A stretch of DNA of 64,000 nucleotides from Bacillota bacterium (lineage in GTDB: Bacteria; Bacillota; Limnochordia; DTU080): assembly GCA_012840225.1 (NCBI GenBank), contig DULU01000005.1, positions 1 through 64,000 of the forward strand. The letters run 5' to 3'. Below the pieces are notes generated by a model, which did no database searches, was not told where the DNA came from, and saw only the letters and a program-made list of their open reading frames with translations. The position numbers and the translations under genes were made by a program. Shown piece after piece: positions 5,761 through 39,937 of this stretch (its first letter is position 1; the number at the start of each line of letters is the position of its first letter).

Positions 5761-5816
5761 GCCTTCCAGCCCTCCTTTGAGATGTAGCAGTGTTGCCCGG
5801 CGTCCGGCGCGCTCCA

Positions 5817-7697: not shown

Positions 7698-9652
7698 ACG
7701 CCGTCACCTCCCAGTCTGCCGGCGGCAAATAACTTGCTGTAATAACCATCCATCTCTAGCAAACTGCGATGCGTACCCTGTTCAACCACCTTGCCCTGGG
7801 CCAGAACCAGGATGTTGTGCGCATGCATCACGGTCGAAAGCCGGTGAGCAATGGCCACCGTGGTGCGACCGCTGCTCACCTCATGCAAAGCCCGTTGCAC
7901 CAGGCGCTCGCTTTGATTGTCGAGAGAAGAGGTGGCTTCGTCCAAAAGCAGAACAGACGGGTTGCGGTAAGCCACCCTGGCTAAGGCCACTCTCTGGCGT
8001 TCACCCCCGGAGAGCAGCCAGCCCCGCTCACCCGGCCTGGTGGCGAGGCCTTCCGGCAGACGGGCCACCACTTCTTCCAGGTGAGCCAGGCGTAGAGCTT
8101 CGGCAAGGCGTATCGGATCGCCTGTCAAAGCCTTCCTCACCCCGGCACCGGCCGGAGCTTTGCCGCCACTTCCGCTCCTACTCACGCTTGCCCAGCCCCC
8201 GCCAAGGACGATATTCTCCTCCAGGGACAGGTGGAAAAGCGCAATATCCTGCGGTACATAGCCCAGCTGAGCCCGCCACCACCCGAGTGGGATCTCAGTC
8301 AGGGAGAGGGTACCCGAGGTGGTCTGCAGTCGGATGGCGCCCTCATCGGGATCATAGATTCGCAAAAGCAGGCGCAGAATGGAGGTTTTGCCCGCTCCCG
8401 TTTCGCCGACGATGGCCGTAAAGCGACCGGTTGGCAAAGTGAACGATAAATTCTGCAGCACGGGCTTGGACGTGCCGGGATATGTAAAAGTGACGTTGTC
8501 GAAGCAAATAGCTTTGACGGTGGCGTTGAAATCGCCGAGCCCGCCCTCGCCATTATCAGCGGCCGCAGGTGCCGGAGTCCGGGTCGTTACCTCTACCGGC
8601 AGCGGCCGATCCCTGTGGTCCTTACCCGGGGCCGCCGGAGTATCAAACACTTCATATACTCTCTGGGCGGCCGACAAGGCTTTTTGCAGGTTCGGCCATA
8701 TGCGCAGCAATTCCATGAAAGGAAAGCTAACCCGCTCAAAACTGACCAGGAAGGCAGCCAGCACGCCGGGTGATATCTCCCCCCGGACCACATGAGTGCC
8801 GCCATAGCCCAGGACAAAGAACAAACCGGCCAGGAACACCGCATATCCCGACGCCTGCAGCAGTTGGTTCCAGAATTCTATGCGGCGGATCAGCCTCAGC
8901 AACGGCTGGTAGGTGCGATCGAAACGCCTCATCAGCCAGGAATCGAGACTGAAAGCCCTGGTGGTCTCCGCTCCCTGCACGGCATCTTGCACCAGGGCGG
9001 AGATTTCCCCTTCCTTCTTATATCTTTCCTGCCACAGCCGGCGGAGGCGGCGGCCGGCCAGGTTGAGAAGGAGGGGACCGCAGGTGGCGGTGAGCAAAGT
9101 GCCGAGAGTCAGCTGCCAGCTCAGCCATAGGAGATATCCTATGGTAATCGATATAATAGCCAGGTAACGTATGGTGTCGATTGCCGCCGTGTTGAACCCG
9201 ACCTGCGCCTCATGGGCATTGCCGGTCAGCCTGGTGATCAAATCGCCGGAATGCTGGCTGGTGCAGTAATCATATTTCACCCGGTGGATGCGGCGCACCA
9301 GTTGCCCCTGCAACTTCTGCACGCTTTCCTGATCAACCCAGGTGCGGACCAATCCGGCGATCGCATTGAATAGCGTGTTGCCGGCAAAGCCGACGAGACC
9401 CACCACCATGCCCTCACGCAGCAAGTCCAGATTGCGTTCGGCAGCGGCATTGATGATCCGCCGCAAAGCGTCGGTCACCCCGAGCTCAAAGAGCGTGGAT
9501 AAAACCAGGGAAATGACAATGAGCAAATACCACTTGGCATATGGCTTGCTGCCGGAAAAGAGCCTCTTAAGGTTTCGCCAGGCCGGAGAATCACTTTCCT
9601 GCCGTCGCCGTCCGGGCAGTGCCTTCGATAGATCCATCGCTACTTCACTCAC
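7682..9652 (-). CDS. ABC exporter half-transporter (first of a heterodimer)
   Basis: A 656-residue exporter half with an N-terminal membrane domain to about residue 340 and a C-terminal ATPase. Walker A AIVGETGAGKTS, signature LLSGGERQRVALARV, Walker B VLLLDEATSSLD and switch IAHRLST are all canonical. Neither half therefore shows the degenerate ATP site found in many heterodimers. A Gly/Ser-rich insertion (GGGWASVSRSGSGG) sits between Walker A and the signature. The start is uncertain: GTG 9652 abuts its GGAGG, and ATG 9637 lies 15 bases beyond it. It is the first gene of a three-gene run with the second half-transporter and the lyase. A good promoter and a palindrome lie upstream. Confidence 0.9.
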   Translation of the reverse strand: MSEVAMDLSKALPGRRRQESDSPAWRNLKRLFSGSKPYAKWYLLIVISLVLSTLFELGVTDALRRIINAAAERNLDLLREGMVVGLVGFAGNTLFNAIAGLVRTWVDQESVQKLQGQLVRRIHRVKYDYCTSQHSGDLITRLTGNAHEAQVGFNTAAIDTIRYLAIISITIGYLLWLSWQLTLGTLLTATCGPLLLNLAGRRLRRLWQERYKKEGEISALVQDAVQGAETTRAFSLDSWLMRRFDRTYQPLLRLIRRIEFWNQLLQASGYAVFLAGLFFVLGYGGTHVVRGEISPGVLAAFLVSFERVSFPFMELLRIWPNLQKALSAAQRVYEVFDTPAAPGKDHRDRPLPVEVTTRTPAPAAADNGEGGLGDFNATVKAICFDNVTFTYPGTSKPVLQNLSFTLPTGRFTAIVGETGAGKTSILRLLLRIYDPDEGAIRLQTTSGTLSLTEIPLGWWRAQLGYVPQDIALFHLSLEENIVLGGGWASVSRSGSGGKAPAGAGVRKALTGDPIRLAEALRLAHLEEVVARLPEGLATRPGERGWLLSGGERQRVALARVAYRNPSVLLLDEATSSLDNQSERLVQRALHEVSSGRTTVAIAHRLSTVMHAHNILVLAQGKVVEQGTHRSLLEMDGYYSKLFAAGRLGGDGVWQSA

Positions 9653-9696
9653 CCTCCGCCGACCAACCAGTTTTACCTGAACCTGGAAATGTTTAT

Positions 9697-9725
9697 ATTA
9701 TGGATGCCGCTGGGTTAAATGTCAA
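9697..9725 (-). promoter_or_regulatory. SigA-type promoter of the ABC exporter operon
   Basis: Read on the minus strand there is a perfect -35 TTGACA (9725-9720), a 17-base spacer and a -10 CATAAT (9702-9697, five of six matches). It lies about 45 bases upstream of the first ABC gene. Confidence 0.7.
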
Positions 9726-9732
9726 TATTACT

Positions 9733-9749
9733 CATTAATAATATTAATG
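9733..9749. promoter_or_regulatory. Candidate operator palindrome next to the ABC promoter
   Basis: CATTAATAATATTAATG is a perfect 8+1+8 inverted repeat ending seven bases upstream of the -35 box. AT-rich palindromes of this kind are typical ROK-family operators, and the ROK gene is the next gene. Control by that protein is inferred. Confidence 0.45.
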
Positions 9750-9846
9750 GGTGGTCTTAACATATTCAATATCAATGATGATGCTATGCATACAAAAAAA
9801 GAACGGACCGCAGCCCGTTCCCTCATTTGCAGTACCAATTACAGCC

Positions 9847-11082
9847 TCAAGCCCAGCGCTTTACCTCTTTGACTTTATTGACGGCATGCGCCCAGCCCCT
9901 TCCGGCCTGCAGTTCCAAATCCGCTCCCAACAGCTTGTTAAACACCAGGCCGGCGGCGCCGATGAGCTCGGAATCGGCACCCAACTCCGAAGCCATCACC
10001 TTTATGCCGCGGCTGGCGGCAAAGGAGTGCACCTGCAGGTAATCCTGCACCCGCCGCACAACGTCCGGCTCGCTGATGATGGGACCGACCAACACCACCG
10101 CATCCGGATGGAGCATATCCACAATCGGTACGCAGACCGAAGCCAAAGCCTCGGCGGTTTCGGCAAAAATCGCCTCCACCAGCGGCTGTTTCCGATCGGC
10201 AGCCGCCACCAACACCTCTTCAAGGGTGCCGATCCCGGTAGCCTGCCGAATTTTGGCCAGGATGTTTTTAGTGCATACCCAGCAAGAAAGGCAGCTTCTC
10301 TGCCCGCAAAACGGGCAGACGAAAGCCGTCTGCGCCACTCCCGGTACGATATGCACCGGCAGATGGCCTATCTCCCCGGCATATCCCTTGCCCTTGAAGA
10401 CCCGCCCATTCAGCACGGCTGCCGCCCCGATTCCCTCATCCACTATTATCAGAATGAAATTATTGAACCGACTGCCGAAAAGGCGCTCAGCGATGGCAAT
10501 GGCCCAATTGTCGGTGTCGATCTCAATCGGTTCGCCAAAATTCCGGGCGAGCAACTCGCGCACCGGCACCAGTCCCACGCAGCCTTTAGTGAAAGAATGT
10601 ATGCCTATGGCTCCGGAACCCGGATCGAAAATCCCGGCAGTGGAGACGCCCACTCCCAACAGGCTGCCGGGCCAGGTGCGCCGGGAAAGCACCGCTCTTG
10701 TGGCCTTGATCGCTTCCTCCAGCACATGGGCGGCAAAGGGCGGATCAGCCGCCTCGCTCCGGAAGATCTCCTGATAAACGACCTTGCCCTTCAGGTTCAC
10801 CAAACCGGCCTTCACCTGGCGCTCACCGATATGTAAAGCCACCACATAGCCGGCATCGGCATTCAGGTCGATCAGGGAGCGGGGTCGACCCATACCGTTG
10901 TTATCATGTTCCTGGCCCACCTCCACCACCAGCCCGGCTTCGATTAATTCATTTATCCACCGGGTAATGGTGGGCTGGCGGGCGGAAGTGAGTCGGCTGA
11001 GCTCTATCCGTGATGTGGGACCATGTTCCAGAAGCGTATCGATGAGAGCACCATGCTTCAATATAACGGCATCGAGTGTCAT
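9847..11082 (-). CDS. ROK-family transcriptional regulator (NagC/XylR type)
   Basis: A 411-residue repressor-type protein. An N-terminal winged helix (LSRLTSARQPTITRWINELIEAGLV) is followed by the ROK sugar-kinase-like fold. The fold has the ATP-site-like GVGVSTAGIFD and a cysteine cluster CPFCGQRSCLSC in place of the usual CxCGxxGCLE zinc motif. ATG 11082 is chosen; TTG 11106 is possible but less likely. Such regulators bind a sugar or amino-sugar ligand and control nearby catabolic or transport genes. The closest candidate target is the ABC exporter/lyase operon just downstream on the same strand, whose promoter carries a palindrome. The ligand is unknown. Confidence 0.88.
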   Translation of the reverse strand: MTLDAVILKHGALIDTLLEHGPTSRIELSRLTSARQPTITRWINELIEAGLVVEVGQEHDNNGMGRPRSLIDLNADAGYVVALHIGERQVKAGLVNLKGKVVYQEIFRSEAADPPFAAHVLEEAIKATRAVLSRRTWPGSLLGVGVSTAGIFDPGSGAIGIHSFTKGCVGLVPVRELLARNFGEPIEIDTDNWAIAIAERLFGSRFNNFILIIVDEGIGAAAVLNGRVFKGKGYAGEIGHLPVHIVPGVAQTAFVCPFCGQRSCLSCWVCTKNILAKIRQATGIGTLEEVLVAAADRKQPLVEAIFAETAEALASVCVPIVDMLHPDAVVLVGPIISEPDVVRRVQDYLQVHSFAASRGIKVMASELGADSELIGAAGLVFNKLLGADLELQAGRGWAHAVNKVKEVKRWA

Positions 11083-11121
11083 ATAGGACTTACTTTCTTT
11101 ATGCAAATAATATATATTTAC

Positions 11122-11150
11122 ATGTTACGACACGAATTTTGGTGTGTCAA
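11122..11150 (-). promoter_or_regulatory. SigA-type promoter of the ROK regulator
   Basis: On the minus strand: perfect -35 TTGACA (11150-11145), 17-base spacer, -10 TAACAT (11127-11122, four of six). It lies 40 bases upstream of ATG 11082. An AT-rich near-palindrome (AAATAATATATATTT) between it and the gene may serve autoregulation. Confidence 0.6.
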
Positions 11151-11333
11151 CCATACCTGGAAGCATCTTCCACTCTGCTCCCCATACTGCTTATGCCGAA
11201 AGTCATGCTCACTACTGAGCAAATATGAAAAAAGCAGGAAATGAAAAGGAATTAAAAAGATCACCGGGAACCTGAATAAGTTGTTTGCCGAGCACCTTCT
11301 ATTATAGGACAATGATGAGGGTATGATGAGGAA

Positions 11334-11750
11334 ATGGAATCGATACTTGTGATTGACGACGACCCAATGGTGAGATCGATATTGGCCATGATGCTTTACG
11401 ACGCCGGTTTTGAAGTGATCGAAGCGGCAGATCCGGCTGCAGCCAGGGAAGTGATGCTGGCAAAGAAGCCGGATCTGGTCACCATCGATATCGATCTCAG
11501 CGGTCCGCCTGGACTGGAGCTGATCACGGAAATCAGAAAACGTGCTCTGTTGAAAGATGTACCTATAGTCGCCTTCCGCAGCTACGCCGGGAAACCGGCC
11601 GTCGTTGTCGGAGCTGATGTCACCTTCGATAAGCCGCTGAATATACAAGATATATTGGACACTGTGCAAAGCCTATTGCCTCATGGCGATTCTGTGCCTG
11701 AATCTGAACCAGAGCCGGAACCTGTACTCAAGCACAGCGGAAAAGGTTAA
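11334..11750 (+). CDS. Stand-alone response regulator receiver protein
   Basis: A 138-residue receiver domain with no output domain. The acidic pocket VIDDD (residues 8-10), phospho-acceptor Asp52 in LVTIDIDLSG and the conserved lysine in FDKPL are present. The beta-4 segment reads IVAFRSYAGKP, so the usual Thr/Ser is displaced by a residue or two. A Glu/Pro repeat tail (PESEPEPEP) ends the protein. A GAGG site lies just before the ATG. No kinase gene is adjacent, so its partner must lie elsewhere. Its stop shares bases with the stop of the convergent SIMPL gene (TTAA). Confidence 0.82.
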   Translation: MESILVIDDDPMVRSILAMMLYDAGFEVIEAADPAAAREVMLAKKPDLVTIDIDLSGPPGLELITEIRKRALLKDVPIVAFRSYAGKPAVVVGADVTFDKPLNIQDILDTVQSLLPHGDSVPESEPEPEPVLKHSGKG

Positions 11751-12484
11751 TACTCAAAGTGCACGGTCACCACCGCACGCACCATCACCTGGCCGGGAGC
11801 CACGCTGGTAGCGGCGGACTCGGCCCGGGCGAGCGTAGCGGTATATGTTAATACAGGTTGAATGGAGCTATCCCTTGCCGAGTTGTCCTGGATGCGGACT
11901 ATGTGCAGCTCGTTTAATCCCGCTCCGGCGGCCATGGCGGCGGCTCTCTCCCGGGCATCTTCCACAGCCAGTTTCAAAGCCTCCCGCTGCAGCTCACTCA
12001 TTTTGCTGGTGCTGAACCTGACATCATCGATGTTGGTGGCGCCCACGGCTACGACGCTGTCGAAGAGTGGTCCCAAAAGTTCGATATCGCTCAGCTTGAC
12101 GCTCAGCTGGTGAGTGACTGTATAGCCTCTGAAGACCCGCTGCCCGTCCACCCAGTCATATTGTGGGCCGACCCGGAAAGTGATGGTCTTTATATCGTTC
12201 TCAGGTATACCGGCCTTTTTCAGAGCCGCCTGTACAGCCTGCATCCTGGAAGCCACTTCCGCCTGAGCTTCCACCGCCGTGTCGGCTGTATGCTGGGTAC
12301 CGATAATGACCGTCGCCTGATCGGGCACGGTGGTCAGCTCGGCTACACCTGAGGTGATTATCTCCCCAGCTTCAACCCCGGCAGTCAACATCGTGAATCC
12401 CAAGGCTACCGCCGCCACCGCCACCCCGGCGAGCAGCCTCATGAGCCACTGAGTCCTGACTTTGGTTTCCCTGTTACACAACAT
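11747..12484 (-). CDS. SIMPL (DUF541) domain exported protein
   Basis: A 245-residue protein starting at ATG 12484, where AGGTGG lies seven bases upstream. An N-terminal signal sequence or anchor (LLAGVAVAAVALGFTML, AGVEAGE) is followed by one SIMPL/DUF541 domain. Typical segments are ITSGVAELTTVPDQATV, VQAALKKAGIPENDIKT, YTVTHQLSVKL and AVEDARERAAAMAAGAGL. The family forms periplasmic or surface oligomers (BP26-like) of unclear function. It is convergent with the receiver gene, overlapping by four bases at the stops. No operon partner is evident. Confidence 0.87.
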   Translation of the reverse strand: MLCNRETKVRTQWLMRLLAGVAVAAVALGFTMLTAGVEAGEIITSGVAELTTVPDQATVIIGTQHTADTAVEAQAEVASRMQAVQAALKKAGIPENDIKTITFRVGPQYDWVDGQRVFRGYTVTHQLSVKLSDIELLGPLFDSVVAVGATNIDDVRFSTSKMSELQREALKLAVEDARERAAAMAAGAGLNELHIVRIQDNSARDSSIQPVLTYTATLARAESAATSVAPGQVMVRAVVTVHFEY

Positions 12485-12609
12485 GGCAGATCCACCTTTC
12501 ATCCGTCTAATATGTCGCATTAGTCCCTGTCTTTATTTTAGGCCATAAATATGACGAAAAGGTGACAGGCCGGCCGAAGCGAAAATTATCTCCGGGGAGG
12601 AGACGGCAT

Positions 12610-13668
12610 ATGAAAAAAGATAGCGGTGGGCTGAAGGCCCGTTCAGCCGGCGAACGGCTGGCGGCGGTGCGCAGCTTTTGTAATAGTGCTGCCGGTAAAG
12701 AGGAGAAAATGGCGACGCTTCAGCCGCTGCTCAATGACCGCTCCAATTTGGTGGTGGCTGAAGTGGTCAAAGGCTTGGCCGCTCTGGAAGAGCCCGGGGT
12801 AGTGCCGGCATTGGCCGCCACTTACCTGCGCCTGGCGGAAGACGGTCCCAAGAGAGATGCAGGCTGCCGGACCCGCCTGGCCATAGTGGAAGCTCTGCCA
12901 AAGCTCAGAGCCATTGAAGCTGCCGACATCCTGCATCATGCCATTAAAACGGTGCAGGTGGAACGCTCCGGCTGTGGTTTTGAGGATATGGCCGTGCCGC
13001 TCCGGGCTCAGGCAGCGGCAGCCATGGCTTCCCTGCGTTGCCGGGGAGCGCTGCCGGCCATTTCCCTCCTGCTTTTCGACATGAAAGCACACGCTCCCCA
13101 TGCTCCTGAGGACCGGCTATTCAGCAACATGGCGGCGCGGCTCGCCGCCGCGGAGTCCCTGGCTGTGCTGGGTGATCCGGGCGGGGTGGCAGTCCTCGCC
13201 GTCAAGCTGGCCTTGCATGAAGAGGAAACAGCCGAGGTCATTGTGGCCTGCTTCGATGCCCTGGCCGAGTTGGACGCCGAGATGGCGCTGGAGCAGTTGC
13301 CGCCGTTTCTGCACCACCATGATGCCTATATCGTGGCGGGTGCCGCCACCGCCCTGGCAAGTCTGCCCGCAGTCTACCAGCCCAAGGTGCTGGAGCTTCT
13401 GGCGGAGAGGGTGGAAAAAGCCGGTTCGACCATCGTCGCCCCCACAGCTGCCTTTACTGCAGCCGCCCACACCGCAACTGCCGATACAGTCACCGCCCTG
13501 ACCCTGGCCATCGCCGCCATCCGCAGCGAAAATGCCGTAACCGTGTTGGAAGGCTTGGCCGGCCACTCCCTCCGGCAAATCCGCACTGCCGCCATAGCCG
13601 CCCTCCGGCAGCGGAGTGATCAGGCTGCCGCAGAAGTGCTGCAGCGGCTGGAGCACCGGCACCGATGA
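12610..13668 (+). CDS. HEAT-repeat protein
   Basis: A 352-residue all-helical, Ala-rich protein. ATG 12610 has GGGGAGGAG nine bases upstream, so the longer frame opening at 12562 is not needed. Repeated helical pairs such as NLVVAEVVKGLAALEEPGVV, AAAESLAVLGDPGGVAVLA and QIRTAAIAALRQRSDQAAAE match HEAT/PBS-lyase-like repeats. These form protein-binding solenoids, and no catalytic domain is visible. An Ala/Thr-rich stretch (about residues 277-300) interrupts the repeats. The binding partner is unknown. It lies divergent from the SIMPL gene and convergent with the LacI gene. Confidence 0.75.
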   Translation: MKKDSGGLKARSAGERLAAVRSFCNSAAGKEEKMATLQPLLNDRSNLVVAEVVKGLAALEEPGVVPALAATYLRLAEDGPKRDAGCRTRLAIVEALPKLRAIEAADILHHAIKTVQVERSGCGFEDMAVPLRAQAAAAMASLRCRGALPAISLLLFDMKAHAPHAPEDRLFSNMAARLAAAESLAVLGDPGGVAVLAVKLALHEEETAEVIVACFDALAELDAEMALEQLPPFLHHHDAYIVAGAATALASLPAVYQPKVLELLAERVEKAGSTIVAPTAAFTAAAHTATADTVTALTLAIAAIRSENAVTVLEGLAGHSLRQIRTAAIAALRQRSDQAAAEVLQRLEHRHR

Positions 13669-13722
13669 TGGGTTTGGTGCCGGCACCGGTACCGGGCCAA
13701 GCGTCCCGACCACTCTTCCTGA

Positions 13723-14736
13723 TTATAATGCAGGGCAGCGGGTCGACTGCCTCACTATCAGCCTGGTCGGCAAATGGTATATCTGCGGAGGCGAATCATC
13801 ACCTTCCAGCCGTGCCAACAGTTTTTCCAGTCCCTTCTCCCCCAGTTCCCGGCTGGGGCAGGCGATGGTGGTGAGCTTGGGGCGGGTATATTGGGACACG
13901 GTATCGTCGAATCCCACGACGGACACCCGCTCCGGCACGCTCAAACCTTGATCGATGAGGGCATTGAGCACGCCATGCGCCATCACATCGTTGAAGGCGA
14001 CGATGGCGGTAAAGGACACATTGCGCCCGATCAGGGTGCCCACCGCCTCATAGGCATCTCGCTCGCTATAACCATCCGCCAGCACCAACAGGCGGGGATC
14101 CTCCTCCATGCCCAACTCGGCCAAGGCTTTGCGCACTCCCCCGTAGCGCAGGCGGGTGGTTTCGCTGTCCTTTGCTCCCACAAAGGCGATGTGGCGGTGA
14201 CCCAGGCCGATGAGATAACGGGCGGCCTGTTCCCCAGCTGCTTCGTCGGCACTGACAAAACAGTCGATGGCCGGTGTCACCCGGCTGCCGGCCACGCCGA
14301 CTACGGGGATCTTTTGGCGGAGAAAGGTCTGGATCAAATCGCTGGCGGCAATATCCCAGGAGAGCACCACGAGGAGTCCATCCACACCCATGGCCGGAAT
14401 ACGTTCTTTATAAAAAGCCACCTTGGACTGATCGCCTTCCGTATTGCCCACGAAGACACAGTAGCCCTTTTTTATGGCGGCATTTTCCACGGCCTGCAAG
14501 ACGGAGGTGAAAAAAGGATTGGCTATGGAAGTGACCAAAAAAGCCAGGTTGCCGCTTTTTCTGGTCTGCAGGGCCCGGGCCATGAGGTTGGGGCGATAAC
14601 CCAACTCCTCAATGGCCGTGAGCACCCGCCGGCGCAGGGGAGTGCTCACCGGTTTGTTGTTGTTGACCACCGCAGACACGGTGGCAATGGACACCCCGGC
14701 CTTTTTGGCCACATCGCGCATGGTCGGCATCTTCAT
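13723..14736 (-). CDS. LacI-family transcriptional regulator
   Basis: A 337-residue regulator with the N-terminal LacI helix-turn-helix (MRDVAKKAGVSIATVSAVVN), hinge helix LMARALQTRKSG and a periplasmic-binding-protein-like effector domain (FLVTSIANPFF, VVLSWDIAASD, FVGAKDSETTRLRYGG, SVVGFDDTVSQYTRPKLTTI). It lies 33 bases downstream of the glutaminase-like gene on the same strand and is probably co-transcribed and locally acting. A possible LacI-type site (AAACGTTT) occurs at 16992-16999, between the glutaminase-like gene and the divergent protease gene. The effector is unknown. Confidence 0.9.
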   Translation of the reverse strand: MKMPTMRDVAKKAGVSIATVSAVVNNNKPVSTPLRRRVLTAIEELGYRPNLMARALQTRKSGNLAFLVTSIANPFFTSVLQAVENAAIKKGYCVFVGNTEGDQSKVAFYKERIPAMGVDGLLVVLSWDIAASDLIQTFLRQKIPVVGVAGSRVTPAIDCFVSADEAAGEQAARYLIGLGHRHIAFVGAKDSETTRLRYGGVRKALAELGMEEDPRLLVLADGYSERDAYEAVGTLIGRNVSFTAIVAFNDVMAHGVLNALIDQGLSVPERVSVVGFDDTVSQYTRPKLTTIACPSRELGEKGLEKLLARLEGDDSPPQIYHLPTRLIVRQSTRCPAL

Positions 14737-14769
14737 CCATCACCCGGCTATGATTATCATCCTATCGCC

Positions 14770-16812
14770 CTAACGGTGTTTATCCCGGCAAAGCAGCGCC
14801 TTGATGAAGACGCCGCCGACCACCGAGCGAGCCTGAAAACCTCTCTGCCGGCCGCTGTCGGAGAAATACCAGTCGCTTAAAGGCACCCGGCTCGGCGTAC
14901 GGTTGATATATTCATAGACCGGCGCCAACAAGTTTTGGAAGTCTTCCTCCTTTTCGGCCAGCGAGGCCGTCCACAGGCACCAATCCAGCTTCGTCCAGGT
15001 GCTGCGGTTGTCCAGCGGCAGCCCATACTCATTTAGCTTGCTCATATAAAAAGCGATCTCTTTTCTTGCCACTTCCGGAGGGAAAACCTTTAAGTCCAGC
15101 AACTCATCCCAAATCAGGTTATATTTCTGGCTCCAGGTTCCGGGTTGGTCAAAGGCCAGCCGGTAATGGTCGCCGTCGTCGGCCTGCTCCATCCACAGGC
15201 GGGCATAACGTTTGGCCGTCTCGTCATACTCTGCGGCTTCAGCGCTCTCCCCCAGCATGGCACACAACTTGCCATACGCCGCCAAAGCCAGGATGGCCTT
15301 GATGGAGAGGTTGGCATTGTGCTCCATATGGCCGGCGAAATCATCGGTGCAAAGCTGGTTTTCCGGGTCAAAACCTTTCTCTTTCAGATAGCGGGCCCAA
15401 CGGCGCAGTAGGTCGGCATAGCGGGCGGCGAAGGCCATATCGTTTTCCAATATAGCCAAGGCCGCCACCATGAGCAGCATATTGCCGCTTTCCTCCACCG
15501 GCATCTGGTTTACTTCAGAGCGTTCTCCTCCCCCATAAACCTGCCCGTTGGCCAATGGGTAAGTGCCGATGTCGTGAGGAGCGAACGGAAATGGCCAGCG
15601 GGGCAGGGAAGCATATTCCAGGACGGGCTGCAGCGCCGCCTTGAGCAGTTGGGGGTGGAAATATAGATAAAAAGGAGAAGTCGGATAGATCACGTCCACC
15701 GTACCGATGCAGCCGTTGCTGAAGTTCTCCTTGGGAAAGAAGAGCGGAGCGCCATCGACATCGGCGACCAATTTGTGAGCCCCGAGGCACTGCCTGTAGG
15801 TCAAGGCACACAGCCGGGCATACTTCTCCCCGCCGCAGGCCGTCATCTCCCCCATAAACTGCTCATCAAACTCCCGGCAGCGGTGATCGACAGCCGGCCA
15901 ATCTTCCAGGGCGGCGGAGAGAAGATCGGCGGCATTCCAGCCAGTACGCCGCCAGTAGGGCCTCAGCCGGCGATGGAGAAATTCGACGGCATATTGATCG
16001 TCGTAAGCGAGCAAGATGGTGCGGGAAACAACGGCGCCGCCCACCGTGCCGGCCGGGACGACATATGCTATACCGGCCAGCCTGGCCTGTTGCGGCATGT
16101 CGAAAGCATCGGCGCCGGGTATCGTCCCTTCCTGGACAAACTGTTGCCGGGCCCGGCGCGGAACGGTAAATACACCCCGGCAGTCTCCCTCACCGGCGGC
16201 ACCGGCGGCGGTGACACCGTCGGCGGTGACACCGTCGGCGGTGGCAGCCATAGCGTATAAATAACCCCAGTCGATGCGCAGGTTGTCGCCGGCTTTGCCC
16301 AACACTTCCTGCTCTTTGGACCCGATGTAAAGCGCCTGCCGCCGGTCCGGTAGCATCAGGCGGCCCCAGACCACTTTTTCTTCCTGAGTATTGACGGCCA
16401 GCGCCGCCCCAACATCAAAATAGATGATTACATCATGAGTCCCGCCGTCCACGGTAACGAGTTCCCAGGTTATGTAAGTGATCGGTCTCGACATAAGATC
16501 CAGGTCGTCCGGCAGCACCGGAGTGGTGAACTTTAGGGTGACGGCTATACCGGCGCCCTGAAAGCGGTAGATGGTACGGGTAGGCCACACCTCCAGTCCA
16601 ACCTGAGGCAGTTCCGGGGCTGAAGCAGGGCCCATTAAGCGATAGACCTTGCCGTCCACCCTGACCATGCTCGTCAGTGGCTGGATTGTGCCGGTCCAGT
16701 GCTTGGTATTATCGGCAGCCAATTTGTCGGCAAACGACCAGATGCTGAGATAGGGATCGCACACCACCAGCGGTACGGCGGGCGGGCGCAGGGCAGGTGC
16801 AGATGCCGGCAT
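14770..16812 (-). CDS. Glutaminase A-like protein (DUF5127/DUF4965/DUF1793)
   Basis: A 680-residue protein with the layout of fungal glutaminase A and bacterial DUF4965 proteins. An N-terminal beta domain (PLVVCDPYLSIWSFADKL, HWTGTIQPLTSMVRVDGK) is followed by a six-hairpin alpha toroid (EKYARLCALTYRQCLGAHKLV, NGCIGTVDVIYPTSPFYLYF, FAGHMEHNANLSIKAILAL, YNLIWDELLDLKVFP). ATG 16812 has AAAGGA nine bases upstream; ATG 16821 abuts it. No clear signal peptide is seen, so it is probably cytoplasmic. In bacteria these genes often sit in glycan-utilisation loci and the true reaction is unsettled. Three short repeats (VTADGVTA) occur near residues 200-214. A promoter lies upstream and a LacI gene downstream. 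Confidence 0.83.
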   Translation of the reverse strand: MPASAPALRPPAVPLVVCDPYLSIWSFADKLAADNTKHWTGTIQPLTSMVRVDGKVYRLMGPASAPELPQVGLEVWPTRTIYRFQGAGIAVTLKFTTPVLPDDLDLMSRPITYITWELVTVDGGTHDVIIYFDVGAALAVNTQEEKVVWGRLMLPDRRQALYIGSKEQEVLGKAGDNLRIDWGYLYAMAATADGVTADGVTAAGAAGEGDCRGVFTVPRRARQQFVQEGTIPGADAFDMPQQARLAGIAYVVPAGTVGGAVVSRTILLAYDDQYAVEFLHRRLRPYWRRTGWNAADLLSAALEDWPAVDHRCREFDEQFMGEMTACGGEKYARLCALTYRQCLGAHKLVADVDGAPLFFPKENFSNGCIGTVDVIYPTSPFYLYFHPQLLKAALQPVLEYASLPRWPFPFAPHDIGTYPLANGQVYGGGERSEVNQMPVEESGNMLLMVAALAILENDMAFAARYADLLRRWARYLKEKGFDPENQLCTDDFAGHMEHNANLSIKAILALAAYGKLCAMLGESAEAAEYDETAKRYARLWMEQADDGDHYRLAFDQPGTWSQKYNLIWDELLDLKVFPPEVARKEIAFYMSKLNEYGLPLDNRSTWTKLDWCLWTASLAEKEEDFQNLLAPVYEYINRTPSRVPLSDWYFSDSGRQRGFQARSVVGGVFIKALLCRDKHR

Positions 16813-16889
16813 ATTAATCATTCCTTTCCTTCGTCAATAATTATGTGACGGTATATGCCGCGGTAGCTAAACCTTTTGCAATTACCATG

Positions 16890-19457: not shown

Positions 19458-19485
19458 TTGTTCTTTGCCGTTTATGTGGTATAAT
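19458..19485 (+). promoter_or_regulatory. Promoter of the T-box/ileS transcript
   Basis: A -35-like TTGTTC (19458-19463), 16-base spacer and perfect -10 TATAAT (19480-19485) with an upstream TG (extended -10). It lies just before the T-box leader. Confidence 0.7.
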
Positions 19486-19504: not shown

Positions 19505-19817
19505 CCTATACAGCGACCAAAAGCGATGATAGGGAAGAGTAGGCTAACGGGGCGGCCTAAGCGAGCCGGAGTTGGTGCGAGTCCGGCGGCAAGCGGTTAG
19601 CTGAAAATCACCCTGGAGCTGTCTCCCCCAAAGCACATAAGCTGCCGGTAGGGGATCCGGAATTTCCCGCCGTTATCAGGGAACGGGTATCGGATCTGTG
19701 ATGCATTGCATCAGGGCACGCAGGTCCCGCACCTGTCAAGGGGCCTGCCTTGCCGGGCAATTAGGGTGGTACCGCGGGAGTTTAACCTCTCGTCCCTTTG
19801 TGGACGAGAGGTTTTTT
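19505..19817 (+). ncRNA. T-box riboswitch, isoleucine specifier, upstream of ileS
   Basis: The leader contains the T-box core AGGGTGGTACCGCGG (19763-19777) followed by a 12-bp terminator stem (19784-19795 with 19802-19813) and six T. In the 3' side of Stem I the sequence GAAAATCACCCTGGAGCTG places the triplet ATC at 19607-19609, the usual specifier position before a purine, which reads Ile. Uncharged tRNA-Ile would pair with the specifier and, through its acceptor end, with the TGGT bulge. This stabilises the antiterminator and turns on the synthetase downstream. The 5' end is approximate. Confidence 0.93.
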
Positions 19818-19871: not shown

Positions 19872-22800
19872 ATGTTTCGCCAGGTCAGTTCACATCCGGA
19901 TTTCGTTTCCCTGGAGCATGAGGTGCTGAAGTTTTGGGAAGACCGACAATGTTTTGAGAAGCTGCGGAGAGCAAGGGCGGCCGAGGCGGCAGAAGTGACT
20001 GAGGGGGCTAAGGAGGCTGAAGCCGGCCGGCTTTTCTCTTTCATCGACGGCCCCATCACGGCCAACAATCCCATGGGAGTGCATCACGCCTGGGGGCGCA
20101 CCTACAAAGACATCTACCAGCGCTACAAGGCGATGCAAGGCTATCACCAGCGCTACCAGAACGGGTTTGACTGCCAGGGTCTATGGGTGGAAGTGGAAGT
20201 GGAGAAAAGCCTGAAGCTCAACTCCAAACGGGATATCAGAGAGTATGGCCTCGCCCGATTCGTCGGGGCCTGCCGGGAGCGGGTACTCAAATTTGCCGCC
20301 ATACAGACGGCGCAATCCAAACGCCTCGGGCAGTGGATGGACTGGGATAATTCCTATTACACCATGGCCGACGACAACATGGAGCATATCTGGTATTTCC
20401 TGCATCGCTGCCACGAAAAAGGCTGGCTTTACCGGGATCAACGGGTGATGCCTTGGTGTATCCGCTGCGGCACCTCCCTCTCCCAGCATGAGCTGCTCGA
20501 CTCCTATAAGGAAGTGGAGCATGATACCGTATTTGTGGCCTTGCCGCTGACTGACGCTCCGGACACGCACTTGCTGGTATGGACGACGACGCCGTGGACC
20601 CTGCCGGCCAATGTGGCGGTAGCCGTGCATCCGGAGGCTGCCTATGTCCAGATCGAGCAAGATGGCAAATCCTATATCCTGGCAGCAGAAGCGCTGAGCA
20701 AATTGACTGCCGCACCATACCACATCAGCGCCGAGTTCAGCGGCAGCGCCCTCCTCGGGAAAGCTTATATCGCCCCGTTTGCCGACCTGCCGGTGCAGAA
20801 ACAACTGAAACAGGCCCACACCATCATCGCCTGGTCAGAAGTTGATCCAGCCGAAGGTACCGGCCTCGTGCACATCGCTCCCGGTTGCGGTGCCGAGGAC
20901 CATGAGCTCGGGCAACGCTTCCACCTCCCCAGGCTCTGTCCCATCGACGAAGACGGCGTTTTTGTGGCCGGTTACGGTTCGCTAACAGGAGTCAATGTCA
21001 AGGAAGCCAAAGGCCTGCTCCTGGCGCAGATGCAACAGGCAGGCGTTTTGTATAAAACCGAAAAACTCCTGCATCGCTACCCCCATTGCTGGCGCTGCGG
21101 CGAAGAGCTGGTATTCCGGCTGGAAGATGAATGGTTCATCTCGGCTGAAGAGATCCGCCCGCACTTGATCAAGGCCGCCGCCTCCGTCACCTGGCTCCCG
21201 GATTTTGCCGGCAAGATGATGCAGGACTGGCTGACCAACATGGGCGATTGGTGCATCTCCCGCAAAAGGTTCTGGGGGTTGCCTCTCCCCTTCTACCCTT
21301 GTACCTGCGGTCACCTCACCGTGGTCAAGTCCGGAGCCGAGCTGGAGCAGCTGAGCGGTAGGCAGCTGCAGGAAAACCGCCTGCATCGCCCCTGGATCGA
21401 TGAAATAACCATCACCTGTCCCAGCTGCGGACAAAGAGTAAAGCGCATCAGCGAGGTGGGCGACTGCTGGCTCGACGCCGGCGTGGTGCCCTACTCCACC
21501 CTGCGCTATCTCAGCGACCGCCAATACTGGCAAAAATGGTTCCCTGCCGATCTGGTGGTGGAAATGCGTGAGCAGATCCGTCTCTGGTTCTATTCCATGC
21601 TCTTTATGAGCGTCACCCTGGAAGGTTGTGCTCCCTACCGGCGGGTGATGATCTATGAGAAGGTGCACGATGAACACGGCCGGCCTATGCACAAAAGCTG
21701 GGGAAACGCCATCTGGTTCGATGAAGCCGTGGAACGCATGGGAGCCGATGTGATGAGATGGATCTACGCCTCTCACTCCCCCACCATCACCCTCAACTTC
21801 GGTTACCGCCTGGCCGACGAAGTGCGCCGTAAGCTCCTCACGCTCTGGCATGTGTATTCCTTCTTCACCACCTACGCCAACATCGACGGCTGGCAACCTG
21901 CAGTCGACGAGAAGGGAAGGCTGGAGACCGGGTTCAGAGAGAAGAGGGCGGTTGGCGGCCACGGGGATGTACCTCTCCTCGACCGATGGCTGGAAGCCCG
22001 CCGGCGGCAATATTTCCAGGCTGTGCGGAAAAGTATGGATGCCTTTGATGTACAGGCGGCGATGAGGGAGCATGAATCGTTCCTGGACGACTTATCCAAC
22101 TGGTATGTCAGGCGGAGCCGGCGCCGCTTCTGGAAGAACGAAAACGACGCCGATAAAGAATCCGCCTATGAAACCCTCTACCAAGCCCTGCTCACCATGC
22201 TGCACCTATTGGCGCCGATATTGCCCTTCATCACCGAGCATATGTACCAAAACCTGGTGCGCTCCATGGCCCCCGGTGAGCCGGAGAGTATCCACCTATG
22301 CCGGCTCCCGGAGGATGAAACCAACACCGGCACGGCGAGCGCTGCCGATGCAGGAGAAATGCTGCTGGAACAGATGAAGGCCGTCAGGGAGGTCGTCAAC
22401 TTGGGATTGGCGGCGCGCAACAGGGCCAGGATACGCATCAGGCAGCCTTTGCCCAGGCTGGCGGTCTCCGGGGTGGATAGTCTGAGCCATGATCCGGAAC
22501 TGATCCAGCTGGTGCAAGAGGAGCTGAATGTCAAAGAAGTACAAGTGTTGCCGGCGGCTGAACTCAGTGCCATGCTCACCGGTGAAGCGCCTCCCTGGAT
22601 CGTGGAGAGGATTGCCGATATATGCGTGGCGCTTGATCCCACGCTCACACCTCAGCTGGTGCGGGAAGGATGGGCCCGCGACCTCGTGCGGCACATTCAG
22701 CAGCAGCGAAAGGAGAGCGGCCTTTCCATCACCGAGCGCATCTGCCTGACCATCGCCGGTGATGAGAAGTTGGCGGGAGCTGTCGAGGAACATGGTGAGT

Positions 22801-22937
22801 ATATCAAGCGGGAAACCCTGGCTGAATACCTGAGATGGGACGGCAAAAGCGAGGGGCTAAGCGAGCTGAAAAGCCAGGCGGCCAAGCAGGTCTCCATCGG
22901 AGGTCTTAAGGCTATTGTAACCATGGAACGACTGTAA
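19872..22937 (+). CDS. ileS: Isoleucyl-tRNA synthetase, IleRS2-like with GXHH signature
   Basis: A 1021-residue class I synthetase that charges tRNA-Ile. The Ile T-box upstream fixes the specificity. The HIGH motif is replaced by Gly69-Val70-His71-His72 in NNPMGVHHAWGRTYKD, so the first and third residues are swapped. The KMSKS loop reads PMHKSWGN, keeping the second lysine. Between them are the editing (CP1) domain, with WTTTPWTLPANVAVAV, and two Cys pairs (CWRCG and CPSCG). The C-terminal anticodon-binding part includes LLAPILPFITEHMYQNL. Known work on IleRS2 enzymes links the GXHH swap to extreme mupirocin resistance. It starts at ATG 19872, about 55 bases after the T-box terminator. An Ala/Glu-rich insertion occurs at about residues 34-52. 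Confidence 0.93.
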   Translation: MFRQVSSHPDFVSLEHEVLKFWEDRQCFEKLRRARAAEAAEVTEGAKEAEAGRLFSFIDGPITANNPMGVHHAWGRTYKDIYQRYKAMQGYHQRYQNGFDCQGLWVEVEVEKSLKLNSKRDIREYGLARFVGACRERVLKFAAIQTAQSKRLGQWMDWDNSYYTMADDNMEHIWYFLHRCHEKGWLYRDQRVMPWCIRCGTSLSQHELLDSYKEVEHDTVFVALPLTDAPDTHLLVWTTTPWTLPANVAVAVHPEAAYVQIEQDGKSYILAAEALSKLTAAPYHISAEFSGSALLGKAYIAPFADLPVQKQLKQAHTIIAWSEVDPAEGTGLVHIAPGCGAEDHELGQRFHLPRLCPIDEDGVFVAGYGSLTGVNVKEAKGLLLAQMQQAGVLYKTEKLLHRYPHCWRCGEELVFRLEDEWFISAEEIRPHLIKAAASVTWLPDFAGKMMQDWLTNMGDWCISRKRFWGLPLPFYPCTCGHLTVVKSGAELEQLSGRQLQENRLHRPWIDEITITCPSCGQRVKRISEVGDCWLDAGVVPYSTLRYLSDRQYWQKWFPADLVVEMREQIRLWFYSMLFMSVTLEGCAPYRRVMIYEKVHDEHGRPMHKSWGNAIWFDEAVERMGADVMRWIYASHSPTITLNFGYRLADEVRRKLLTLWHVYSFFTTYANIDGWQPAVDEKGRLETGFREKRAVGGHGDVPLLDRWLEARRRQYFQAVRKSMDAFDVQAAMREHESFLDDLSNWYVRRSRRRFWKNENDADKESAYETLYQALLTMLHLLAPILPFITEHMYQNLVRSMAPGEPESIHLCRLPEDETNTGTASAADAGEMLLEQMKAVREVVNLGLAARNRARIRIRQPLPRLAVSGVDSLSHDPELIQLVQEELNVKEVQVLPAAELSAMLTGEAPPWIVERIADICVALDPTLTPQLVREGWARDLVRHIQQQRKESGLSITERICLTIAGDEKLAGAVEEHGEYIKRETLAEYLRWDGKSEGLSELKSQAAKQVSIGGLKAIVTMERL

Positions 22938-29921: not shown

Positions 29922-32585
29922 CTATATGTTGATACCGGAAATTCCGAGCAGAAGAATGTCTGCATCGGTTTCTCCATTCCCACAGCAGAGAATGGCAGCG
30001 ATTTCCCGCTCAGGATGCGGGTTCACCCACTCAAAGCCGAGGGCGGTTACATCACGCCCGTCGCCGGTTTTGGCCTGCAGCAGCGGATCCCCCCAATAGG
30101 TGGCGATATATCCCTGATGACGGTAATATTGCTGCGGCAAAGGTTGACCATACCGCCTGGTATAAACACATATATTGCCGGCATATTCGACAGGTATTTC
30201 CACCTGGGAACCGTCGGCATAACGGACGATATACCGACCGACTTCTTTCAGCGGCTGCCAGGCAATGCGCATGGCATTGTTGGCGGTGGCATGGAGGAAT
30301 ACGAGCTTGTCATAGTTGGCTCTCACCGGCACCTCGATGGGTGTGGTGGTGAGCCTTTGGGCATTGGTAAAGTCAAAAGAGCAGCTCCACAGTGTGGTGG
30401 GTGTGCGCTGCAGCGCTTCGGCAAGTGCAGCAGGCAAAGCAGACGAAGCTGGCAAAGCAGGCAAAGAGATGGCCCTGGAGGTGAACTGGTGACCAAAAGG
30501 CTTGGCGATGCCCCGCAACTCATCCCGCAGCCTGGGCAGCCGCTTGGTTATCCAGGCAGTATATATCTCACGAGCCCGGGAATCATAGGTTTCCGACCAG
30601 AGCATCTCGGCTGAATATAACAGGTCGAAGATCTTCCCTTTCTTCGCCAAGGTGTATTCATCGCAGCGGCACCAGGTGGAAACCTCCCCTCCGATCATGC
30701 CTTCTTTGGCGATGCGCTGCTCAAAGCGGGGATAATGGCTGGAATACATATTCCCCATGATGATCTTGTAGCCATAGGGCAGGAGATTATCTTCCAGATC
30801 GAGGTCAAAATGGAAATACCAGATAAAATCGAGCAGCACTATGTCCCGCGGCAGCCGCTCCCTTGCCGGATGGGTTTTGTAGCGTTCGGTGGGCTGCAGC
30901 ATATCGCACCAGATCATCATTTTCAGGCCTTTTTTGGCCAGATACTCGTACATACGCCTGACATGCAGCTCATACAGCTCGGCATGATCCTTGCCCTGGC
31001 AGCGGGGACAGAGCCCTATCTGGTAGATTTCGTCATGCCCCATGTGCACATAGCGTTCCGGGCGGACGACCTCTACAATCTCGTCAATAATATCATAGAT
31101 GATTTCATAGCTTTTCTCGTGCAGGGGGCAGTAGGTGTGATAGTAATGTGTGCTCGGCGGCTGATCGGCGAGGCGGGTGTCGAGCTTCTTCTCCTTGACA
31201 GCCTCCTCCGCCACCTCGGCGATTTCGGGGTGGGCATAGGTGATGTATTGGGTATGCCCGAAGGACTGCACCTCGGGGATCACTTCGAAACCGAATTGCT
31301 TGCAATAGGCGACGAACTCCCGCACTTCATCCTTCTCCAGCAGCTCGCCACCGGCTACCATATCGCCGTGTGGGAACTTCGGCTGCAGGCCGGCGGCGGC
31401 GGCCCGGTTGCCTTGCACCCAGGCTTCGCTGATCTCGGGATGCCGGTCAAAACGCATGCCGCCGGCAAATTCTATGAAAATGGTGTTGTAGCGCATAGGA
31501 ATCAGCACATAGCGGATCAAGCGCTTCATAAAAGGTATTTCTTCCCGGGGCGGCAACCCGAAGTGGAACCCGCGCACCTCGCAGCGGGGCTCGTCATCCA
31601 CTTCACAGAATGGCACGGTACCTTTTTGGGCCAGCTGGACAAGGGTTTCGGCAGCATATAGCAGGCCGATCCTCTGCGAAGCGACGAGCTCCACACCGCC
31701 GGCATGCACCCGGACGCCATATCCGTTGGGCTTGATGGCGGCATCGAGGGCGATGGTGATCGTCCCTTCCGGAGCGGCCGGGTTGGCTGACGGAATGGCT
31801 GACGGTGCCTGCCCGGACGATGTGATTATCGGCAGGTCAACACCGAAACATTCTCTCAGGCGTTCCTTTATAAAGGAAGCAACAAATTCCACATCGGCTG
31901 CGGCGGCGGCTGTGGTTGGGGTTGGGGCTGGGGCTGCGGCTGAGTCGGAGGCGGGAATCATGATGGCTTTCAAAGCCGAAAGCGGCAGCTCTCCTTCCTG
32001 GTAGCGGAGGCTTTTGGGCGTCGGGTAGACATCCGGCTCATCGGCTTCGGCTCCAATGACTGCCAGTTTGGATATAACGATATCTTTCAGGTCAGCCTGC
32101 AGCCGCACGACTAGTGTAGCCGCCCACACGCCAATGGGTACGGTTATTTCCCCATTCAGCAAATGGCCGCTCCCGGCATCCAGACGCCCGACACAGGTGA
32201 GGGTATTATTATGCGCACCGCTTTCACCGGCAAGAGAAAAGACCTCCACAGCCGCCACGCCGGAACGCCCGGTAAGTTCCAGACAGACTGCGCCGATGAA
32301 AAAAGCCTGGCCAAAATTGATGCGGATATCGACGCCGGTATCCATCAGCGAATTCCATTTCCATCCCACCGGAGCGCCTTGGCCCAGACTCTCTGTACCG
32401 AAGGGGATCTCTCCGCCCTGTGGCTTGGCATCACCTGTATCCGGGGTTATATCAGGTGGAAAAGGCTTCCCCGTTCCCCGGCGGAAAAACTGATAGCTAC
32501 CTTTAGGATCAATGCTGTTTATGTTTAGTTGACCTATATACATCTCTCGCTTGGTGGCTGATCCGACGCCGAAGACCGGAGGCAC
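29922..32585 (-). CDS. Glycoside hydrolase family 20 (beta-N-acetylhexosaminidase-like)
   Basis: An 887-residue multidomain protein without a signal peptide. A discoidin-like domain (about residues 70-180, ending IVISKLAVIGAE) precedes the GH20 N-terminal domain (VYPTPKSLRYQEGELPL). The GH20 catalytic barrel has CEVRGFHFGLPPREEIPFMKRLI, VIPEVQSFGHTQY and the catalytic pair Asp518-Glu519 in HMGHDEIYQ. A C-terminal beta region follows. GH20 enzymes remove terminal GlcNAc or GalNAc by substrate-assisted catalysis. The start is uncertain: GTG 32585 or ATG 32543. An Ala/Pro/Thr-rich insertion (about residues 213-232) is low-complexity. nagA at 54.9 kb could handle released GlcNAc after phosphorylation. 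Confidence 0.85.
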   Translation of the reverse strand: MPPVFGVGSATKREMYIGQLNINSIDPKGSYQFFRRGTGKPFPPDITPDTGDAKPQGGEIPFGTESLGQGAPVGWKWNSLMDTGVDIRINFGQAFFIGAVCLELTGRSGVAAVEVFSLAGESGAHNNTLTCVGRLDAGSGHLLNGEITVPIGVWAATLVVRLQADLKDIVISKLAVIGAEADEPDVYPTPKSLRYQEGELPLSALKAIMIPASDSAAAPAPTPTTAAAAADVEFVASFIKERLRECFGVDLPIITSSGQAPSAIPSANPAAPEGTITIALDAAIKPNGYGVRVHAGGVELVASQRIGLLYAAETLVQLAQKGTVPFCEVDDEPRCEVRGFHFGLPPREEIPFMKRLIRYVLIPMRYNTIFIEFAGGMRFDRHPEISEAWVQGNRAAAAGLQPKFPHGDMVAGGELLEKDEVREFVAYCKQFGFEVIPEVQSFGHTQYITYAHPEIAEVAEEAVKEKKLDTRLADQPPSTHYYHTYCPLHEKSYEIIYDIIDEIVEVVRPERYVHMGHDEIYQIGLCPRCQGKDHAELYELHVRRMYEYLAKKGLKMMIWCDMLQPTERYKTHPARERLPRDIVLLDFIWYFHFDLDLEDNLLPYGYKIIMGNMYSSHYPRFEQRIAKEGMIGGEVSTWCRCDEYTLAKKGKIFDLLYSAEMLWSETYDSRAREIYTAWITKRLPRLRDELRGIAKPFGHQFTSRAISLPALPASSALPAALAEALQRTPTTLWSCSFDFTNAQRLTTTPIEVPVRANYDKLVFLHATANNAMRIAWQPLKEVGRYIVRYADGSQVEIPVEYAGNICVYTRRYGQPLPQQYYRHQGYIATYWGDPLLQAKTGDGRDVTALGFEWVNPHPEREIAAILCCGNGETDADILLLGISGINI

Positions 32586-32670
32586 AACCGGATCAACCTT
32601 CGCTCCTTTCCTTATGTGATGTTTTTATATGCTTTTCAGGTCAGGTCATGCCAGGCCGCAAAATTGATAA

Positions 32671-33393
32671 TCAATAATGAAACGACAGGCCGGCAATGCC
32701 GTCTACAACCAGAGAGAAGGCAACGGTGTTGGCATCGGTCTGAGCACCTTTCTGTTCTGTAATAGCTGTCATAATCTGGCGGCATTTTTCTTGCGGCGTC
32801 ACAATCAGCAGCACATCCTTCTCGGGATGGATGGTAATGCCCAACACCTTGCTGGCATATTTCATGCCGACACCTCTGGCGTGCAGCACCGTTCCACCTG
32901 AGGCACCGGCCGCTTTCGCCACGCTCATCACTTCGTCAACATAGCCGCGATTCATGATGGCTACAATCAAATTGTGGGCGCAAGACTGCCCGGATGCGGA
33001 TGAACCAGGCTGGTCATGTTGCTCCACGGCTTTTCCCTCCCCCCCTGCCGTTCCTCCCTTTTCTTCCGGCATACATTTTCCGTGTGCCATGCCGGCAATG
33101 GCACAAAGCGGTATGCTAATAGCAATACCCCCGCCAAATGAGGATAATAGCACTTTGTCCAGTTTCTCCAATACAACCCGTGACAGCGGCAATGGCAGGC
33201 AGCTGAATAATACATCTTTTTCGCTTATGCCCAGTCCCAAATAGGCCAGGATACTCGTATCGGCTGTGCCTTTACCCAAAGTTAGATAGTTAAACAAGAT
33301 GCCCTTCTCGATAAATATATCTGCCAGCTTATCTCCAAAGCCCCTGTTGATTATCACGATCAGTAATGCCAATGATGTGACCGTTGTCGGCAT
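32671..33393 (-). CDS. Tandem P-II-like regulator linked to DUF1538
   Basis: A 240-residue protein made of two P-II-like (GlnB-fold) units. The first is at about residues 5-105 (LIVIINRGFGDKLADIFIEKG, GKGTADTSIL). The second is at about 140-240 (NLIVAIMNRGYVDEVMSVAKAAG, HARGVG). A Gly/Glu-rich linker joins them. P-II proteins bind nucleotides and regulate transporters. This one lies 47 bases downstream of the DUF1538 membrane protein on the same strand, a known pairing, so it probably gates that protein. The uridylylation-type T-loop tyrosine is not evident. Confidence 0.8.
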   Translation of the reverse strand: MPTTVTSLALLIVIINRGFGDKLADIFIEKGILFNYLTLGKGTADTSILAYLGLGISEKDVLFSCLPLPLSRVVLEKLDKVLLSSFGGGIAISIPLCAIAGMAHGKCMPEEKGGTAGGEGKAVEQHDQPGSSASGQSCAHNLIVAIMNRGYVDEVMSVAKAAGASGGTVLHARGVGMKYASKVLGITIHPEKDVLLIVTPQEKCRQIMTAITEQKGAQTDANTVAFSLVVDGIAGLSFHY

Positions 33394-33440
33394 ATGTGAA
33401 TGATCACCACCTCTCCGGCTCTCCCTATAGCTCTCTAGCC

Positions 33441-34985: not shown

Positions 34986-35099
34986 CGGCCGGTCCTTTTT
35001 GCTTTTATATTGTGCTTTTTGCTTGTGGCGATCTATAGCTGATAACCACAACCCCTGGCAAGCATATTCGACGCCAAGTATAGGTCGCCTGCAATATTT

Positions 35100-35206
35100 G
35101 CATGCCATGGATGTGACAAACGCGATGAGTGTGATGAATGTGATGAAGGCGATGAAGGCGATCGTTGCCGGGATTGACGGATTGACGGATCGACGGATCG
35201 ACGGTT
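35100..35206. repeat. Short tandem repeats upstream of the DUF1538 gene
   Basis: The gap 34986-35277 holds GATGAAGGC/GATGAATGT-type nonamers, then GACGGATTGACGGATCGAC-type octamers. No gene is seen here. Confidence 0.6.
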
Positions 35207-35277
35207 GAAGCTGAAGATGTGACGGCTGACCACCGCCACTCATACCATGGTACTAATCATTTATTGGAGGAGTGGCG

Positions 35278-36045: not shown

Positions 36046-36129
36046 ACAAGAAACAAGTAGCATATAGCAGGTAAAGCAGGCTTGGCAGTATAATTGTGCA
36101 TGCAGTAAACATCAGAAAATGGAGTTGAC

Positions 36130-37362: not shown

Positions 37363-37380
37363 TGGGTGGTTGAGGCAGCA
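37338..37380. terminator. Long hairpin between convergent genes
   Basis: An 18-base arm (37338-37355) pairs with 37363-37380 with one G-T wobble and a seven-base loop. It overlaps the stop of the ATP-grasp gene and faces the TPR gene end. The T tract is weak on both sides. Confidence 0.55.
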
Positions 37381-37395
37381 TTAAAGCTCCCTGAC

Positions 37396-39699: not shown

Positions 39700-39937
39700 G
39701 TCGATAAACCCCCATTGCAGGTTAATTGCGGCTAACTGCCCCTTAACTGTCCGCCGGCACATATATTTCGACGCTCATTGGCAATATTAACAGACACTTG
39801 ACAAGGAATATTTATCCAGCAGGCGAGTATTTCATCAGCGATTCTATTTGTCCTTCTTTTCCGCTTTTGTGGTGGCGGGAAGAAGAAGGAGCGAGAGGGG
39901 AGGAGGGAGGTGGGTGGAGGGGCCCAGACTGCTCGCC

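Follow-up and report, generated by a model that had tools for sequence, protein, structure and literature searches.

The window (the whole stretch of DNA that was analysed, 64,000 nucleotides on contig C120) carries an ileS gene preceded by a T-box leader (Table 1). Judged by its score against TIGR00392, the curated NCBI equivalog model for ileS (710.5 bits, cut-off 621.4), and by its pocket and editing residues, the gene product is an isoleucyl-tRNA synthetase (IleRS). Alignment to the Thermus thermophilus enzyme (1ile) finds P61, D100, W533, Q568 and W572 kept at the places of P46, D85, W518, Q554 and W558, the residues that hold isoleucine in published structures, and the residue table drawn from the alignment likewise has the editing residues T238, T239, T240, T243, H334 and D343 in place. 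No CxxC zinc motif is present in the C-terminal sequence. The AlphaFold2 model (pLDDT 89.6, pTM 0.86) has as its top fold matches the Priestia megaterium IleRS2 structures 8c8v, 8c8w and 8c9d, of which 8c8w is an engineered GVHH form; the overall fold is thus ordinary for a type 2 IleRS.

An isoleucine T-box had been predicted upstream of the gene, and the Rfam match, the AUC specifier, the core and the terminator bear this out. The leader unites what defines the isoleucine class of this riboswitch, namely a stem I with an isoleucine specifier, a T-box core and a competing terminator, the latter with a stability of -21.1 kcal/mol (z -7.1 against shuffles). Four relatives (L015, L016, L017 and L044) also have AUC-ACC at this point of their leaders. 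A promoter can be proposed only tentatively.

Table 1. Features of the ileS locus, other window genes referred to in the text, and the second ileS of the genome
Feature	Position	Strand	Remarks
TTGTTC, weak candidate -35	19458-19463	+	paired with TATAAT
TATAAT, candidate -10 of the leader promoter	19480..19485	+	found by eye; consensus scan below threshold; tentative
T-box leader, isoleucine-specific	19517..19800	+	Rfam RF00230, 114.2 bits, gathering 93, E 1.6e-24
Specifier codon AUC (Ile)	19607..19609	+	stem I specifier loop GAAA-AUC-ACC, cmscan alignment
T-box core TGGTACCGCG	19767..19776	+	antiterminator, binds 3' end of uncharged tRNA; cmscan alignment
Intrinsic terminator	19784..19817	+	12-bp stem (19784-19813) and U-run; terminator scan
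ileS	19872..22937	+	1021 aa; second IleRS, divergent IleRS2-like clade; TIGR00392
GVHH at HIGH position	20076..20087	+	residues 69-72; aligns to H54-H57 of 1ile
CP1 editing domain	20502..21086	+	residues about 211-405; match to 1wk8
EMREQIRLW in place of EGxDQxRGW ATP/Ile loop	21561..21587	+	residues 564-572; alignment
YEKV in place of HG[F/L/H]x	21654..21665	+	residues 595-598; K597 at adenine-facing position; alignment
PMHKS at KMSKS position	21684..21698	+	residues 605-609; Lys608 kept; aligns to K591-S595 of T. thermophilus IleRS
Anticodon_1 domain	21981..22451	+	residues 704-860; Pfam PF08264, E 1.9e-28
DUF5915 C-terminal domain	22596..22874	+	residues 909-1001; Pfam PF19302, E 3.1e-25
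AadA C-terminal-domain protein	1533-2453		this and the following gene lie next to a response regulator
Aminoglycoside 3-N-acetyltransferase-like protein	2645-3478
IleRS1	1438-4299 of L001 (contig C21)		953 aa; HIGT, KMSKS, C-terminal zinc motif

Signature motifs of the enzyme and its clade

HIGH and KMSKS are the defining motifs of class I synthetases. The GVHH that the original prediction placed at codons 69-72, within 20073-20090, falls exactly on the HVGH of 1ile and of P. megaterium IleRS2 in the alignments, and PMHKS, named there as the KMSKS loop, was likewise placed on that motif by alignment to the T. thermophilus and P. megaterium enzymes; in the alignment with characterised IleRS no canonical HxGH falls elsewhere in the window protein. 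The description of the active site as doubly unusual is right in that both motifs are altered, but the alterations run through a whole clade and are not peculiar to this gene.

Scanning 84,980 species genomes yielded 249 loci; the 80 relatives kept from these share 41-53% identity with the window protein and belong to Bacillota, Chloroflexota, Actinomycetota, WOR-3, Planctomycetota, Armatimonadota, Heimdallarchaeota and DPANN archaea. Positions 3 and 4 of the HIGH motif are His-His in all 81 sequences (the relatives and the window protein) and position 1 is Gly in 76 of the 80 relatives, so GVHH is not the product of chance or of a sequencing error. Most of the relatives also have an altered KMSKS segment. 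One part of the clade has PMHKS, EMHKS, DMHKS, AMHRS and similar there; in the Oscillospiraceae/Clostridia part the loop is shortened and the segment is [KR]FSK[TS]. The fourth position is Lys or Arg without exception. GxDQ, the loop found in both IleRS1 and classic IleRS2, occurs in none of the 80 relatives; most of the clade has E-M-x-E-Q-[IVL]-R-L-W-F in its place and a basal group has E-[CS]-F-P-G-Q-F-[RK]-N-W-F. In the rows that were compared with these, from IleRS1, classic IleRS2 and the archaeal type, the loop reads E-G-x-D-Q-x-R-G-W-F, with a second residue that is sometimes Ala or with Lys-neighboured variants.

Across the 81 sequences, 33 of the 37 rows with His at the third KMSKS position lack the first lysine, and 42 of the 44 rows with Ser there have Lys or Arg at the first. 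Residue 597 is Lys or Arg in 22 of 35 rows without the first lysine, against 2 of 46 rows that retain it. The raw counts for a coupling between loss of Lys1 and gain of His3 are strong, but the tree provides no more than four or five independent contrasts and the coupling is not statistically significant, so the association is suggestive only. In L021, a Chloroflexota sequence nested among PMHKS enzymes, the segment is RLSKS; Arg1 and Ser3 return together here, so this sequence is a naturally occurring test of the coupling. The literature that was searched yielded no paper mentioning PMHKS and no discussion either of a Lys1 loss linked with a His3 gain or of the rewritten ATP loop.

How might such an active site work? 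His71, at the third motif position, could fill the role of the histidine that opens HIGH. Lys608 would be the remaining KMSKS lysine, and His607, perhaps together with Lys597, might substitute for the one that was lost. Since both signature motifs are altered and so is the ATP loop, the gene product might be a synthetase paralogue that is catalytically dead or moonlights, which we consider extremely improbable: identical alterations are found where the clade gene is the only ileS detected, and the pocket, the editing site and the anticodon domain are conserved. A window-clade gene is the sole TIGR00392 match (E <= 1e-120) in 45 of the 50 other carrier genomes checked and, even when incomplete metagenome-assembled genomes (MAGs) are allowed for, the essentiality of the reaction implies that the family must charge tRNA-Ile. 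A widespread clade that alters HIGH, KMSKS and the ATP loop, yet provides the sole IleRS in many genomes, amounts to a natural experiment on essential active-site parts.

Relation to known types of IleRS

The window clade forms one group in both trees that were built, a quick one of 63 proteins (support 100) and a careful one of 37 (100/100); classic IleRS2 is its sister clade (100 and 100/99, respectively) and IleRS1 lies outside. The nearest kin of the window protein are two proteins from Bacillota MAGs (L016 and L017). Besides its separate branch and the missing zinc motif, the protein differs from IleRS1 in reading RTYK where IleRS1 has NK[IV]L after HIGH.

The classic eukaryote-like IleRS2 class was reportedly delineated by Cvetesic in 2016, with HYPFE as its motif. 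With these enzymes (those of T. thermophilus and P. megaterium, MupA, and the Streptomyces/Nonomuraea type) the window clade shares the type 2 domain layout, the nearest solved folds and the lack of a C-terminal zinc motif. Classic IleRS2, however, keeps KMSK[S/H], E[G/A]xDQTRGW and, mostly, HYPFE, all three of which the window clade lacks, and identity is about 30-38%. The window protein has RYLSD in place of HYPFE, carries PMHKS and EMREQ, and falls outside the clade of T. thermophilus, P. megaterium, MupA and actinobacterial sequences. The original label, IleRS2-like with a swapped motif, therefore stands as far as the closer kinship with IleRS2, the GXHH and the altered KMSKS are concerned, but does not extend to membership of the classic class. 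The protein does belong to IleRS2 in the wide sense, with two clades, of Brkic et al. (2023; PMC10485003), being nearer to classic IleRS2 than to IleRS1 in the tree, in its DUF5915 domain and in its folds.

The GXHH motif was described in some IleRS2 in that study, which distinguishes a major and a minor clade in which the change occurs, the latter comprising few sequences, from Planctomycetota and Chloroflexota (PMC10485003). The window clade is probably this minor clade, by a comparison of descriptions rather than sequence by sequence: in both, GXHH is ancestral, the position is apart from the main IleRS2 clade, and Planctomycetota and Chloroflexota are among the members. The published text does not discuss a KMSKS change and is silent on the lost GxDQ loop and on members from Bacillota, Actinomycetota and archaea, all of which are found in the window clade. 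Members of classic IleRS2 that carry GXHH (Nonomuraea, Rhodococcus, Acetoanaerobium) retain KMSK and the DQ loop, so the motif was most likely gained independently in the window clade; a joint origin is disfavoured by the tree, though short of formal rejection (AU p = 0.053).

The window enzyme is mostly a case of an already recognised phenomenon, GXHH in IleRS2, and what is added here is a T-box-controlled second copy and a clade that rewrites KMSKS and the GxDQ loop. Whether the clade deserves the rank of a third kind of IleRS is a matter on which we lean towards no, while holding the idea as a serious possibility. Such a kind would have moved the HIGH histidine from position 1 to 3, exchanged the first KMSKS lysine for a third-position histidine (many members having also gained a lysine eight residues upstream) and turned GxDQ into MxEQ, with full housekeeping activity retained. 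Heimdallarchaeota genomes (L025/L028 and L126/L127) encode a pair of IleRS enzymes: one, with GMHH and AMHRS, belongs to the window clade, and the other, with HVGH and KMSKH, is a classic IleRS2.

Two ileS genes in one genome

A search for a second ileS elsewhere in the genome finds one on contig C21 (987 bits), an IleRS1. Among relatives, 39 of 40 genomes have one strong IleRS match, and all 29 that were inspected are IleRS1; among 73 class genomes, that of the window alone has a gene of the window clade. The view that the window gene is the housekeeping copy does not survive these findings, insofar as it is not the sole housekeeping gene. Two class relatives (G093 and G094) that appeared to be further carriers, at 38% identity, turned out to have a classic IleRS2 with HIGH and KMSKH instead. 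In this genome and in 28 of the 29 inspected relatives (L001, L095-L123), the fourth HIGH residue of IleRS1 is Thr (HIGT or HLGT); according to the 2023 survey, HXGH is present in all IleRS1 (PMC10485003).

Could the two genes stem from two organisms in one bin, with one ileS each and either the window contig or C21 as contamination? The assembly consists of 154 contigs with an estimated contamination of 4.28%, which leaves some room for this, but we judge it quite improbable. Tetranucleotide correlation with the genome mean is 0.98-0.99 for the window segments, with one atypical segment at 0.85, and 0.98 for C21, compared with 0.70-0.72 for other genomes of similar GC, and the only phosphoglucose isomerase (PGI) gene of the genome sits on the window contig. 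By their composition, C120 and C21 thus appear to be parts of a single genome.

The distribution of T-boxes differs between the two genes. Nine T-box matches were found in the genome, none of them on C21, and a permissive scan down to E = 5 found none in the leader of the C21 ileS1; at the ileS1 loci of relatives a T-box is present in 14 of 20. Directly upstream of L015, L016 and L017, the genes most closely related to that of the window, there is likewise a T-box, so the leader may have moved along with the gene. In Firmicutes, ileS is usually under T-box control (PMC2494555), and the window locus resembles those loci in its AUC specifier and its terminator/antiterminator leader; unlike them, it has the T-box on an accessory ileS2, with none on ileS1. 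Since such control is normal for housekeeping ileS genes in Firmicutes, the presence of a T-box is not in itself proof of a backup role, and it is conceivable, if unlikely, that housekeeping falls mainly to the window gene, with the IleRS1 on C21 as a minor copy and the T-box as ordinary amino-acid control. The status of clade members as sole ileS in most other carriers would fit such a role; the uniform presence of IleRS1 in inspected relatives, the rarity of the window type in the class and the lack of a recognisable T-box at this genome's ileS1 speak against it.

The best reading, to which we give a probability of about 0.7, is that the window gene encodes an active IleRS of a deep, under-described IleRS2-like clade, serves as an acquired, T-box-inducible backup beside IleRS1 and is predictably insensitive to mupirocin. 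The complete isoleucine T-box on this gene is what makes a starvation-inducible backup the best reading. The gene would be an accessory, patchily distributed copy, for which horizontal transfer is the best explanation; it was probably acquired as a second copy beside the IleRS1 gene that lacks a T-box.

Mupirocin and the proposed backup circuit

The published work invoked for a link between a swapped HIGH motif and mupirocin hyper-resistance exists. In other IleRS2, GXHH raises the Ki for mupirocin by as much as about 1000-fold, and a clash with the third histidine, modelled for P. megaterium IleRS2, would exclude the drug; the same change inactivates IleRS1 (PMC10485003). As the swap in the window protein is the GXHH of that study, mupirocin hyper-resistance or insensitivity of the enzyme is a fair prediction. 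The conclusion is not automatically transferable, because the enzymes studied belong to another IleRS2 clade with normal KMSKS and GxDQ and the change is inactivating in IleRS1. Second IleRS2 enzymes of Bacillaceae (P. megaterium) and the plasmid-borne MupA resemble the window gene in standing beside an IleRS1 and are linked to mupirocin resistance; theirs is a canonical HIGH in another clade, whereas the window enzyme has GVHH. A precedent for a T-box-controlled, mupirocin-resistant IleRS appears in a figure legend of PMC2494555.

Drawing on established T-box biology and on the 2023 study (PMC10485003), we propose the following sequence of events. Shortage of isoleucine or inhibition of IleRS1 would cause uncharged tRNA-Ile to accumulate; this would antiterminate the AUC T-box and permit read-through only then, so that IleRS2 is made. 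GXHH would exclude mupirocin from the window enzyme, and charging would be backed up under inhibition. A T-box on ileS2 with none on ileS1 would plausibly form an inducible backup circuit. The clade as a whole suggests that uncultured bacteria and some archaea harbour a reservoir of enzymes that are probably insensitive to mupirocin.

In mupirocin-producing Pseudomonas, a resistant IleRS2 serves self-protection (cited in PMC10485003). By that precedent the window gene could be a self-resistance gene against an IleRS inhibitor made by the same organism, a very improbable reading given that no polyketide or peptide assembly genes were found among the 40 window proteins scanned. The aminoglycoside-modifying homologues, which had been offered as a resistance context, are separated from ileS by about 16 kb and many unrelated genes, share neither an operon nor proximity with it, and thus lend no support to such a context.

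The remainder of the window is rich in glycan-degradation genes (3919-16821, 29922-32585 and 47107-54760), among them an alginate lyase with CBM96, a GH20 protein, an apiosidase-like protein, a sulfatase and a glutaminase A hairpin, accompanied by ROK and LacI family proteins. The compositionally atypical segment spans 32000-48000, has a lower GC (0.515) and a correlation of 0.85 where the rest of the window reaches 0.98, and is possibly a mobile insertion. It contains open reading frames at 40910-41950 and 42169-43209, one of them with a weak helix-turn-helix match.
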